Shown here: piece by piece, positions 13,831 through 18,415 of the stretch
How the letters are laid out: every line of letters starts with the position of its first letter
Numbering within the stretch: position 1 is the first letter of the stretch
NCBI GenBank assembly: GCA_913045195.1
Contig: CAJWQR010000009.1
Location: forward strand, 1 to 40,168
From: an uncultured Legionellales bacterium
GTDB taxonomy: Bacteria > Pseudomonadota > Gammaproteobacteria > Eutrophobiales > Eutrophobiaceae
DNA length: 40,168 nucleotides
Reading direction: 5' to 3'
Position numbers and translations under genes: made by a program
Notes under the pieces: model-generated
Told to the model about the DNA's origin: nothing
Databases searched by the model: none
The model's input: only the letters and a program-made list of their open reading frames with translations

Positions 13831-15636
13831 ATGTTACCGATGGATCGTATACGAAATTTCTCAATTATTGCTCATATCGATCATGGCAAATCCACGTTAG
13901 CTGATCGTTTCATCCAAATTTGTGGTGCTTTAACAGAAAGGGAAATGGAAGAACAGGTGCTAGATTCAATGGATATTGAGCGAGAACGCGGTATTACCAT
14001 AAAGTCTCAAAGCGTTACCCTTAATTACGAAAAAGAAAATGGCGAAAAATACCAATTAAATATTATTGACACTCCCGGTCATGTTGATTTCAGTTATGAA
14101 GTTTCACGTTCATTAGCGGCTTGTGAAGGCGCATTACTTGTGGTTGATGCTGCTCAGGGTGTTGAAGCACAAAGCGTAGCAAATTGTCATACCGCTATTA
14201 ATAATAATCTAAAAGTATTACCAGTATTAAACAAAATCGATCTTCCCTCCGCAGAGCCAGATCGTGTTTTAGCTGAAATTGAAGAGATCATAGGTATTGA
14301 TGCCAAACAGGTTTTAAAAGTTAGCGCAAAATCAGGCGAGGGTATATCAGAACTATTAGAGCAATTGATTGACTTTATTCCAGCTCCTTCGGGAAACAAA
14401 GACAATCCACTGAAAGCACTAATTATTGATTCTTGGTTTGATAATTATCTTGGCGTTGTATCGCTGGTTAGGATTGTTGATGGCAAACTAAAAATCGGAG
14501 ATAAAATTAGAGTTATGTCGTCATCCAGGGATTTTGTTGTTGATCAATTAGGAGTATTTACACCTAAACGAAATCCAAAAAATTTACTTCTTACCGGTGA
14601 AGTAGGCTATATTGTGGCGGGCATCAAAGATATCGATGGAGCTCCTGTTGGTGACACTTTAACCTTATCTAACGCACCTGCATTTGAACCTTTAGCAGGG
14701 TTTCAGACTATAAAACCACGTGTTTTCTCTGGTCTCTTCCCTGTTGATTCAACTGATTATGAATCATTTAGGGATGCATTATCAAAATTAAAACTAAATG
14801 ATTCAGCATTACAATATGAGCCTGAAACATCGCAAGCACTTGGTTTTGGTTTTCGCTGCGGTTTTCTTGGCATGCTACATATGGAAATTATTCAAGAACG
14901 ATTAGAGAGAGAGTATAACCTTGAATTAATTATAACTTCACCGACAGTTATCTACGAAGTCCTTACATCAGAAAAATCAATTATTAATATAGATAATCCA
15001 GCTAAATTACCGCCTATAAATAAAATTATTGAAATAAGAGAACCCATAATTATTGCTGATATTCTTGTCCCACAGAATTATTTAGGAAACGTTATAACAT
15101 TATGCATTGAAAAACGAGGTGTACAAAAGAAAATGCAATACTTAGGAAAACAAGTTTCTTTATCATTTGAAATGCCAATGAGTGAAGTAGTGTTAGATTT
15201 TTTTGATCGCCTTAAATCAGTTAGTAGAGGTTTCGCATCATTTGATTATACGTTTTTGAGATATGAAGTTGCTGATTTAGTTAAGCTTGAGATTTTAATA
15301 AATAATGAATATGTTGACGCTTTGTCATTTATTGTTCATAAAGATTTTTCACAAAGTAAGGGACGTATTCTCACAGAGAAAATAAAAGAATTTATTCCTC
15401 GCCAAATGTATGATGTTGCTATACAAGCAGCAATTGGCTCGAAAATTCTTTCAAGGCAAACCGTAAAAGCAATGAGAAAAAATGTTACCGCCAAATGTTA
15501 TGGAGGCGACATCACTCGTAAACGTAAATTGTTAGAAAAACAAAAAGAAGGGAAAAAACGAATGAAGCAATTTGGCACTGTTGAAATACCACAGGCCGCT
15601 TTTATGGCAATTTTACATGTAGGTAAAAATAAATGA
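13831..15636 (+). CDS. lepA: Elongation factor 4 (LepA) GTPase
   Basis: LepA is a ribosome-binding GTPase related to EF-G that affects translation initiation and elongation. It has 601 residues (E. coli 599). G1 is AHIDHGKST at 14-22, followed by the ERGITIK switch, DTPGHVDF and NKID. The C-terminal domain unique to LepA contains the [31 protein letters not shown] region and the final KKRMKQFG stretch. ATG 13831 is used; ATG 13840, three codons later, is equally possible because neither has a clear Shine-Dalgarno. A -10-like TATAGAAT at 13786-13793 stands in the 140-bp gap after mucD, with no good -35. The stop overlaps lepB by four bases. Confidence 0.97.
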
Positions 15637-16433
15637 GTTTTGATTTTTCATTATTGTTAGTTGTACTCACTGGAGTTAGCGGATTAATATGGCTAATTGA
15701 CTATTTTATATTAGAACCAAGGCGAAAAGTACACAATAAAAGAACTAATGAGGCTAGAAAGTTAAAACAATCTTTTATTGTTGAGCAAGCCAAATCTTTT
15801 TTTCCGATTTTTTTGATAGTATTAGTTTTAAGATCATTTATTTTTGAACCATTTAGAATTCCATCAGGCTCAATGATGCCTACTCTTTTAATTGGGGATT
15901 TTATACTAGTAAATAAATATGACTATGGTCTTCGTTTGCCAGTAACCCATAATAAATTTATTGAAAATAATTTACCTCAAAGAGGAGATGTAGTTGTATT
16001 TCGTTACCCAGAAAACCCCAAAATCCCCTATATCAAGAGAATTATTGGGTTGCCAGGAGATAAAATTACTTATTACAATAAAACTTTATATATCAATGAT
16101 ATCATAGCTGAACAAAGCACAGGCGGTTCTTATCCTGCATTTGGAGCAGGATTAACAATGCTGGGCTCTTTATTAGTCTCAGAAGATCTTGGTACTATTA
16201 GGCATGAAATCTTAATTGATCCAGATAGAGATTCTTTTGAATTTGTAACAATAGTGCCAGACTCGCATTATTTTGTTCTAGGGGACAATAGAGATAATAG
16301 CAAAGATAGTCGGTACTGGGGATTTGTTCCAGAAGAGAATTTAGTTGGGCGTGCATTTATGATATGGATGAATTGGGACAGCAAAAGTAAATCAGTAGTA
16401 AATTATAAACGTATAGGTAAGAAAATAAAATAA
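15633..16433 (+). CDS. lepB: Signal peptidase I
   Basis: LepB is the inner-membrane protease that removes signal peptides from exported proteins. The 266-residue protein has two N-terminal membrane segments (about 4-25 and 52-70) and the Ser/Lys dyad: Ser80 in [15 protein letters not shown] and Lys135 in [11 protein letters not shown]. The late box [17 protein letters not shown] is complete. It starts with ATG in the four-base overlap ATGA with the lepA stop, so translation is probably coupled. lepA-lepB order is widespread in proteobacteria. Confidence 0.96.
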
Positions 16434-16453: not shown

Positions 16454-16846
16454 ATGAAAAATTTATTAAAACATCAAGAAGGAATGTCATTTCTAGGGAT
16501 CATAATAATACTTGGAATGCTAGGTTGTTTTTTTCTTTTTGGCTTGCGAGCATTTCCTTTATATACTGAACATTTCGCCATTAAACAGGCAATGAAAGGC
16601 GTTGCTGCGCAACCATATAAGTCAAGAAATAGTATTTCAAAAGTTAGAAAATTATTATTAAAAAATTTAGATATAAATTCAGTCTACTCGTTTAATCAAA
16701 AAAATATAAAAAAAGTTACAACACTAAAGAAGAAGAAAGGCAAAAGAATTCTTTATTTTAAGAATACTAAAAGAGAGCACTTATTTGGCGATCTATATCT
16801 GAGCATAGTAACTGACGAATCTATTGAATTGCCCGGGGGAAAATAA
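16454..16846 (+). CDS. DUF4845 family membrane-anchored protein
   Basis: A 130-residue protein with one N-terminal hydrophobic segment at about 12-32 (MSFLGIIIILGMLGCFFLFGLR) that resembles the opening of pilin-like proteins, then a small basic soluble domain. The start, with a short leader ending in KHQEGMSFLGI, and the position between lepB and rnc match the DUF4845 family found there in Pseudomonas and relatives. No biochemical function is known to me. The last codons contain the GGGGGA that appears to serve as ribosome binding site for rnc, and its stop lies two bases before the proposed rnc start, so translation of rnc may depend on it. Confidence 0.8.
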   Translation: MKNLLKHQEGMSFLGIIIILGMLGCFFLFGLRAFPLYTEHFAIKQAMKGVAAQPYKSRNSISKVRKLLLKNLDINSVYSFNQKNIKKVTTLKKKKGKRILYFKNTKREHLFGDLYLSIVTDESIELPGGK

Positions 16847-16851
16847 CAATA
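16835..16851 (+). promoter_or_regulatory. Ribosome binding site and AUA start of rnc
   Basis: GGGGGA at 16835-16840 is followed by eight bases and then ATA AGT AAT. This is an ideal Shine-Dalgarno spacing to codon ATA at 16849. An ATG at that place would give the common opening Met-Ser-Asn. No ATG, GTG or TTG exists in this frame between the upstream stop (TGA 16825-16827) and the conserved RNase III sequence. Confidence 0.65.
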
Positions 16852-17508
16852 AGTAATTTTATTAATTATGCATTTAATAATAAAAATCTATTAGAAATTG
16901 CATTAACACATCGAAGTTTAGGCGGTAACAATAATGAAAGGCTTGAATATCTAGGTGATGCAATTTTAGGTTTTATAATTGCCGAACATATTTACAATAA
17001 ATATTCAAATGCTGCAGAAGGTGATTTAACACGACTTAGAGCGTCGCTTGTAAAAAAAGAAAAACTTGCCGATATAGCACGCGAAATATCACTTGAAGAA
17101 GAAATAAAGCTAGGTTCTGGCGAACTAAAAAGTGGAGGCTGGCGTCGCGACTCAATTCTAGCAAACACACTAGAAGCAATTATTGGTGCTATATATTTAG
17201 ACTCTAATATTGACGTATGTCGTTCTGTCATTCTTGATTTATATGGCAAACATCTTGAAATAATTGATCCAAAAAATATTAAGAAAGATCCTAAATCACA
17301 ACTTCAAGAGTATTTGCAATCTAAAAAAAAACCAACGCCTATATACGAAGTAATTAATGAAAAAGGCTCATCGCATCAGCCAGAGTTTACCATCTCATGT
17401 AAAGTTGATTTATTAGATGAACTAGTAATTGGTACGGGAAGTAGCAAACAAAAAGCAGAACAGCTAGTTGCTGCTAAAATTCTAATGCAACTTGAAAATA
17501 GCAAATAA
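16849..17508 (+). CDS. rnc: Ribonuclease III, with apparent AUA start codon
   Basis: RNase III cuts double-stranded RNA in rRNA and mRNA processing. The frame encodes 219 residues. The catalytic signature NERLEYLGDAIL holds Glu30, Glu33 and Asp37, LGSGELKSGGWRRDSIL follows, and a double-stranded-RNA-binding domain covers about 145-219 (KDPKSQLQEYLQ ... GTGSSKQKAEQLVAAKIL). The first ATG, GTG or TTG in frame is TTG 17314, inside the second domain, so the gene is missed by ordinary start rules. Residue 106 is Asn where E. coli has the metal ligand Asp114; Glu109 (E. coli Glu117) is kept. The order DUF4845-rnc-era is as in Pseudomonas. A real start-codon change, or an assembly error of ATG to ATA, are the alternatives. 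Confidence 0.9.
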   Translation: MSNFINYAFNNKNLLEIALTHRSLGGNNNERLEYLGDAILGFIIAEHIYNKYSNAAEGDLTRLRASLVKKEKLADIAREISLEEEIKLGSGELKSGGWRRDSILANTLEAIIGAIYLDSNIDVCRSVILDLYGKHLEIIDPKNIKKDPKSQLQEYLQSKKKPTPIYEVINEKGSSHQPEFTISCKVDLLDELVIGTGSSKQKAEQLVAAKILMQLENSK

Positions 17509-17527: not shown

Positions 17528-18415
17528 ATGAAAGAATTTAGATCGGGGCATGTAAGCATTATTGGTAAGCCAAACGTCGGAAAATCAACACTATTAAATC
17601 AATTAATAGATCAAAAAATTAGTATCGTCAGTAGAAAACCACAAACAACGCGCTGGAATATTAATGGCATAAAAACTAGCAATAATTATCAGATAATCTT
17701 TATTGATACACCAGGTCTTCAAATTAATCCAAAATTCACTCTAAACCGTTACATGAATAAAGAGGTATCAAATTCTTTAATATTTGTAGATATCGTTTTA
17801 TTTGTTGTAGAAGCATTAAATTGGAATGATCTTGACGTAAATGTAGTAAAATTACTAAAAAATACAAAAACAACTAAATTATTTCTAGTCCTTAATAAAA
17901 TTGACAAAATACCTAAAAAAAATCAGCTTTTATCTGATATTAATGCTATATCAAAAGAAATAGAATTTGATGAAATAATTCCGGTATCGGCAATTAAAGA
18001 CACGGGGATTAAAAGACTTGAAGAATTAGTTGCCTCATGTTTGCCTGTCTCACAACCTTTTTATCCCATTGAACAGATTACCGATCGTAGCGAACGATTT
18101 TTTGCTGCGGAATATATACGTGAAAAATTAATTATTCGTTTAAATGATGAAATTCCTTACCAATTATCAGTTACTATTGAGGAATTTAATGATACTGGAA
18201 ATCTAATTCATATAAATGCATGTATTTGGGTTGAAAAACAAGGGCAAAAACCAATTGTAATTGGAAAAAACGGGGAAGTGCTAAAGGAGGTTGGAAGATT
18301 GGCAAGACTTGATCTTGAAAAGTTATACGATAAGAAAGTCAATCTCAAAACATGGGTAAAAGTTAAAAGTAAATGGTCAAATTCTAAAACAGCGTTAAAG
18401 AAATTTGGTTTTTAG
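17528..18415 (+). CDS. era: GTPase Era
   Basis: Era is an essential GTPase that binds the 3' end of 16S rRNA during 30S subunit maturation. It has 295 residues. G1 is GKPNVGKST at 13-21, the effector stretch is RKPQTTRW, G3 is DTPGL and G4 is NKID. The C-terminal KH domain at about 205-290 includes PIVIGKNGEVLKEVGRLAR. Most Era proteins have His, not Trp, after QTTR, a minor difference. It follows rnc after 19 bases, the conserved rnc-era-recO order, and should be co-transcribed with it. Confidence 0.96.
   Translation: MKEFRSGHVSIIGKPNVGKSTLLNQLIDQKISIVSRKPQTTRWNINGIKTSNNYQIIFIDTPGLQINPKFTLNRYMNKEVSNSLIFVDIVLFVVEALNWNDLDVNVVKLLKNTKTTKLFLVLNKIDKIPKKNQLLSDINAISKEIEFDEIIPVSAIKDTGIKRLEELVASCLPVSQPFYPIEQITDRSERFFAAEYIREKLIIRLNDEIPYQLSVTIEEFNDTGNLIHINACIWVEKQGQKPIVIGKNGEVLKEVGRLARLDLEKLYDKKVNLKTWVKVKSKWSNSKTALKKFGF

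Follow-up and report, generated by a model that had tools for sequence, protein, structure and literature searches.

A conserved AUA codon as the probable start of the RNase III gene in a clade of gammaproteobacterial genomes

The stretch of DNA analyzed here (the window, 40,168 nucleotides) is contig C9 of a 1.39-Mb draft genome (G000) of an uncultured Legionellales bacterium, with a GC content of 36% in the 360 kb sampled. Around rnc, the genes run in the order lepA, lepB, DUF4845 gene, rnc, era, recO, and pdxJ. The features around the start of rnc are as follows.

13831-15636, lepA (gene-order survey)
15633-16433, lepB (gene-order survey)
16454-16846, + strand, DUF4845 gene, upstream of rnc (PF16137, 52.7 bits)
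16825-16827, + strand, in-frame TGA closing the rnc frame upstream (sequence, translation)
16835-16840, + strand, Shine-Dalgarno-like GGGGGA, 8 nt from the ATA at 16849 (read directly)
16843-16845, + strand, second in-frame ATA, 2 nt past GGGGGA, unconserved in most relatives (sequence, relatives)
16849-16851, + strand, proposed AUA initiation codon of rnc (aligned codon in 19 clade genomes)
16849-17508, + strand, rnc, RNase III, 219 residues plus stop (TIGR02191; Pfam Ribonucleas_3_3, dsrm)
17314-17316, + strand, TTG, first canonical codon of the rnc frame, 162 codons in and beyond the catalytic signature (stop-to-stop scan)
17528-18415, + strand, era, downstream of rnc, with a conserved ATG start (control; relatives)

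The product of rnc scored 231.2 bits against TIGR02191 (cut-off, 166.25) over model positions 5 to 218 of 219 and matched Pfam Ribonucleas_3_3 and dsrm; it is a genuine RNase III. The sequence-only reading had described this frame as open from the TGA at 16825 and lacking ATG, GTG, and TTG up to the TTG at 17314. Sequence, translation, and a stop-to-stop scan of the frame (16828-17508) agree on this, and every coordinate given earlier for the rnc region was correct. The GGGGGA reported eight bases ahead of the ATA was likewise read in the sequence, where the codons ATA AGT AAT occupy 16849-16857.

Relatives were searched at the whole-genome level, and their rnc 5' ends were read. Genera g1, g4, g7, and g8 comprise 19 genomes with an rnc gene. 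These form one clade (SH-aLRT, 99), and their RNase III proteins are 58 to 81% identical to that of the window; most or all of the sequences are draft assemblies, many of them from uncultured organisms. The codon aligned with 16849-16851 was ATA in 16 genomes, ATC in one (G025), and GTA in two (G065 and G066), and none of the 19 carried ATG, GTG, or TTG. It lies 17 codons ahead of the ALTHRS motif in most clade genomes and 18 to 19 codons ahead in four. As judged by eye, a purine-rich, Shine-Dalgarno-like stretch precedes it at similar spacing in all 19. Initiation at the ATA at 16849, as proposed earlier, is the best reading of these data.

A G-to-A sequencing error or polymorphism at 16851 had been named as a possible cause of the missing start, and a single such change in this draft assembly would suffice. 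The relatives rule this explanation out: the same codon recurs in 15 further genomes that were assembled separately, and the comparison at 16849-16851 that had been suggested as a refutation of the AUA start found no aligned ATG. The recurrence of ATA at this position in 16 of the 19 genomes indicates a kept feature rather than a sequencing error.

The frame holds two further near-cognate codons, ATT at 16828 and ATA at 16843. Both are in frame, and infC uses ATT and ATC starts in these genomes, but initiation at either codon is unlikely. Neither is conserved, and several relatives have an in-frame stop downstream of these positions; moreover, the ATA at 16843 has the wrong spacing to GGGGGA, and no such stretch stands ahead of the ATT. 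Conservation thus favors 16849. The frame opens only one codon before the ATA in G069 and four codons before it in G001, and the ATC of G025 immediately follows an in-frame stop, which excludes starts further upstream in these three genomes. Position -17/-18 is the sole one available as a start in all clade genomes. In G003, an in-frame GTG three codons upstream of the aligned codon could serve as the start. The start codon is uncertain in G065 and G066, because GTA at the site is followed by ATC. Most other genera of the family (g5, g6, g9, g11, g13, and g14) have GTG or ATG at -24, indicating that the clade RNase III is about seven residues shorter at its N terminus.

At the conserved fourfold columns of the 19 rnc genes, pairwise identity of the third base was 0.34 and the commonest base never exceeded 13 of 19, indicating that silent positions have been randomized. 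In the column of the start codon, A occupied the third position in 18 genomes and G in none. Elsewhere in the clade rnc genes ATA makes up 35% of Ile codons, with at most 12 ATA in any other conserved Ile column. The binomial figure for the start codon (2e-5) is only indicative, as it ignores the shared ancestry of the genomes, and in 13 of them the overlapping stop codon leaves the third base only partly free (A or G).

In these 13 genomes, the DUF4845 stop overlaps the rnc start as A-UAA, A-UAG, or G-UAA, suggesting translational coupling; in the window, the stop (TAA, 16844-16846) ends 2 nt ahead of the AUA. The overlap looks like the A-UGA arrangement common in coupled genes, except that A stands in place of G, and we infer coupled initiation at a weak codon of rnc. 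The main rival to a regulatory purpose is that the AUA is real but a passenger, produced when an A-UGA overlap became A-UAA through one G-to-A change. Its persistence would then reflect the preference of an AT-rich genome for TAA stops, together with a start made adequate by coupling. This origin is possible, though doubtful. Besides the overlap in the 13 clade genomes, TGA overlaps of this kind in genus g11 (ATGA) and in G013 of genus g9 (GTGA) speak for it. However, the six clade genomes without the overlap still have ATA (five) or ATC (one), and ATGA, an equally legal stop where TAA overlaps, is found in no genome.

As the two genes overlap or abut, ribosomes could also continue from DUF4845 into RNase III through frameshifting or stop readthrough. 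This is highly improbable: the two genes share a frame in G025 and stand in other frames in the remaining relatives, which would call for different recoding events, and all have an in-frame stop a few codons ahead of the AUA as well as the Shine-Dalgarno-like stretch.

The order rnc-era-recO is common to the window and the E. coli operon. E. coli rnc starts with ATG and has a leader that is cut by RNase III, whereas rnc of the window abuts the DUF4845 gene and has no leader. The mention of leader cleavage in the sequence-only reading found no support here, because rnc lacks a leader of its own, with the DUF4845 gene reaching up to or into its start, and no consensus hairpin surrounds that start. 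RNAalifold predicted no conserved pairs among 14 relatives in the stretch from -80 to +45, the only one folded, which does not fit E. coli-type autoregulation through a leader hairpin.

The lack of canonical starts was also surveyed in other genes. In 360 kb of the window's genome, 321 gene-like open reading frames reached 110 codons or more. Only three family-matched genes among them had no canonical codon near the N terminus, namely, rnc and the following two.

glmM, locus L200, 295-1653 on contig C8 of G000, - strand, no N-terminal ATG, GTG, or TTG (start survey)
ysxC/engB, locus L208, 16650-17276 on contig C17 of G000, - strand, no canonical start (start survey)

In readable clade members, glmM has ATT (ATC in G011) about seven codons ahead of YFGTDG, and 13 of them have no canonical codon at all; an ATT/ATC start of glmM was also seen in G010 (g6) and G035 (g11). 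For ysxC, GGAGAATTTGTC-ATC and similar AUH starts were found in G000, G002, G005, G001, G012, G033, and G073. In several clade members, GGAG or a similar stretch precedes the AUH codon, although in five g4 genomes an ATG stands two codons ahead of it. Together with rnc, these genes may represent a small group of housekeeping genes that start with AUH.

Their presence in much of the clade would also fit a relaxed start fidelity of the whole lineage, with AUA, AUU, and AUC serving as starts throughout the genome. This is very unlikely. A genome-wide test in G000 and G072 gave no Shine-Dalgarno excess at AUH codons lying in frame upstream of the first canonical start (4.0% versus 3.9% at other codons). 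The control genes keep canonical starts: era has ATG 12 to 13 codons ahead of its G1 motif GxPNVGKS in all 18 clade genomes checked, and pcnB in each clade genome read starts at codon -52, with GTG in G025 and ATG in the others. An altered initiator tRNA or IF3 was rejected as a cause, as both look normal in the window's genome; the anticodon stem retains its GGG/CCC pairs, and IF3 is present and intact. The initiator tRNA of G002 (L308) has AGG/CCT in place of GGG/CCC. The start of infC in the window's genus is ATC or ATT, as expected for this gene.

Across Gammaproteobacteria, 79 of 80 rnc loci picked from the GTDB collection had a canonical codon at least 20 codons ahead of the catalytic signature. 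The exception, L133, is a member of the clade (public genome Thiotrichaceae bacterium UBA973) with the same 5' sequence as G065. A high-GC relative, G020, was dropped as a control for missing starts, as its frames were mostly chance extensions. Candidates without a canonical rnc start also occur outside the clade: ATA right after TGA behind GGGGGAGGTG in G007 (L009), ATT or similar in G021 and G029 (L018 and L016), and ATC in G047 (L210), whose congener G074 has TTG. The rnc 5' ends and proteins of G021 and G029 are identical, and one of the two copies may therefore be contamination. With these candidates included, parsimony requires at least four changes on the tree.

In the RNase III of family f1, Asn (ILANT/ILANA) replaces the metal-binding Asp at the position of E. 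coli Asp114 in nearly all genomes; Asp is kept there in 52 of 58 readable other gammaproteobacterial loci. The replacement was rejected as a trait of the clade, being family-wide.

As judged from the sequences compared, then, the 19 genomes combine the lack of a canonical rnc start with a conserved codon, a purine-rich stretch, and, in 13 of them, the stop overlap. Very probably, the AUA at 16849-16851 is the start of rnc, guided by the Shine-Dalgarno-like stretch and DUF4845, and dates far back in the clade, where selection against AUG has preserved it. Ribosomes would finish DUF4845 two bases upstream and then start rnc at the AUA, with GGGGGA guiding initiation and coupling to DUF4845 presumably helping. 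The initiator tRNA would read AUA as formyl-methionine. The AUA would be old in g1, g4, g7, and g8, where selection would have acted against AUG. Its putative role, holding RNase III synthesis low and perhaps sensitive to IF3, is plausible.

To our knowledge, very few bacterial genes keep a start other than AUG, GUG, or UUG. The open-access literature searched contained no report of an AUA or other non-canonical rnc start. Like infC, the clade rnc has an AUH codon in place of ATG, GTG, or TTG, conserved across species (AUH in 17 of 19 genomes, GUA in 2), with a purine-rich Shine-Dalgarno stretch at the usual spacing (GGGGGA, 8 nt; in relatives by eye). However, infC regulates itself through IF3, and no comparable direct loop links RNase III to the choice of its start codon. 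In Staphylococcus aureus, ribosome profiling revealed AUA starts in infC, ccpN, and citZ; those of ccpN and citZ gave about 10 to 30% of AUG output in reporters, and the ccpN start is also conserved in Bacillus subtilis (PMC13009471). The clade rnc shares the AUA with ccpN and citZ, but these are Firmicutes genes with extended Shine-Dalgarno pairing, whereas the start of rnc overlaps or abuts an upstream stop. E. coli pcnB, which starts with AUU (Binns and Masters 2002, as cited in PMC13009471), likewise encodes an RNA-processing enzyme, and its weak start keeps synthesis low, as the AUA may for rnc. In the clade, unlike in E. coli, pcnB has an ordinary ATG (or GTG), and the weak start is on rnc instead. 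The clade rnc most likely belongs with infC, pcnB, and ccpN, a small class of genes in which weak starts are conserved.

It is conceivable, though improbable, that the clade has moved rnc, glmM, and ysxC, together with infC, under AUH starts as a small regulon. The output of this regulon would then track the activity of IF3 and hence the status of the ribosomes. In these genomes, gene finders that accept only canonical starts would shorten rnc, glmM, and ysxC or miss them altogether. A conserved AUA on rnc would add a central RNA-processing enzyme to the genes with weak starts, and the 19 genomes provide a natural set for testing why such starts persist.
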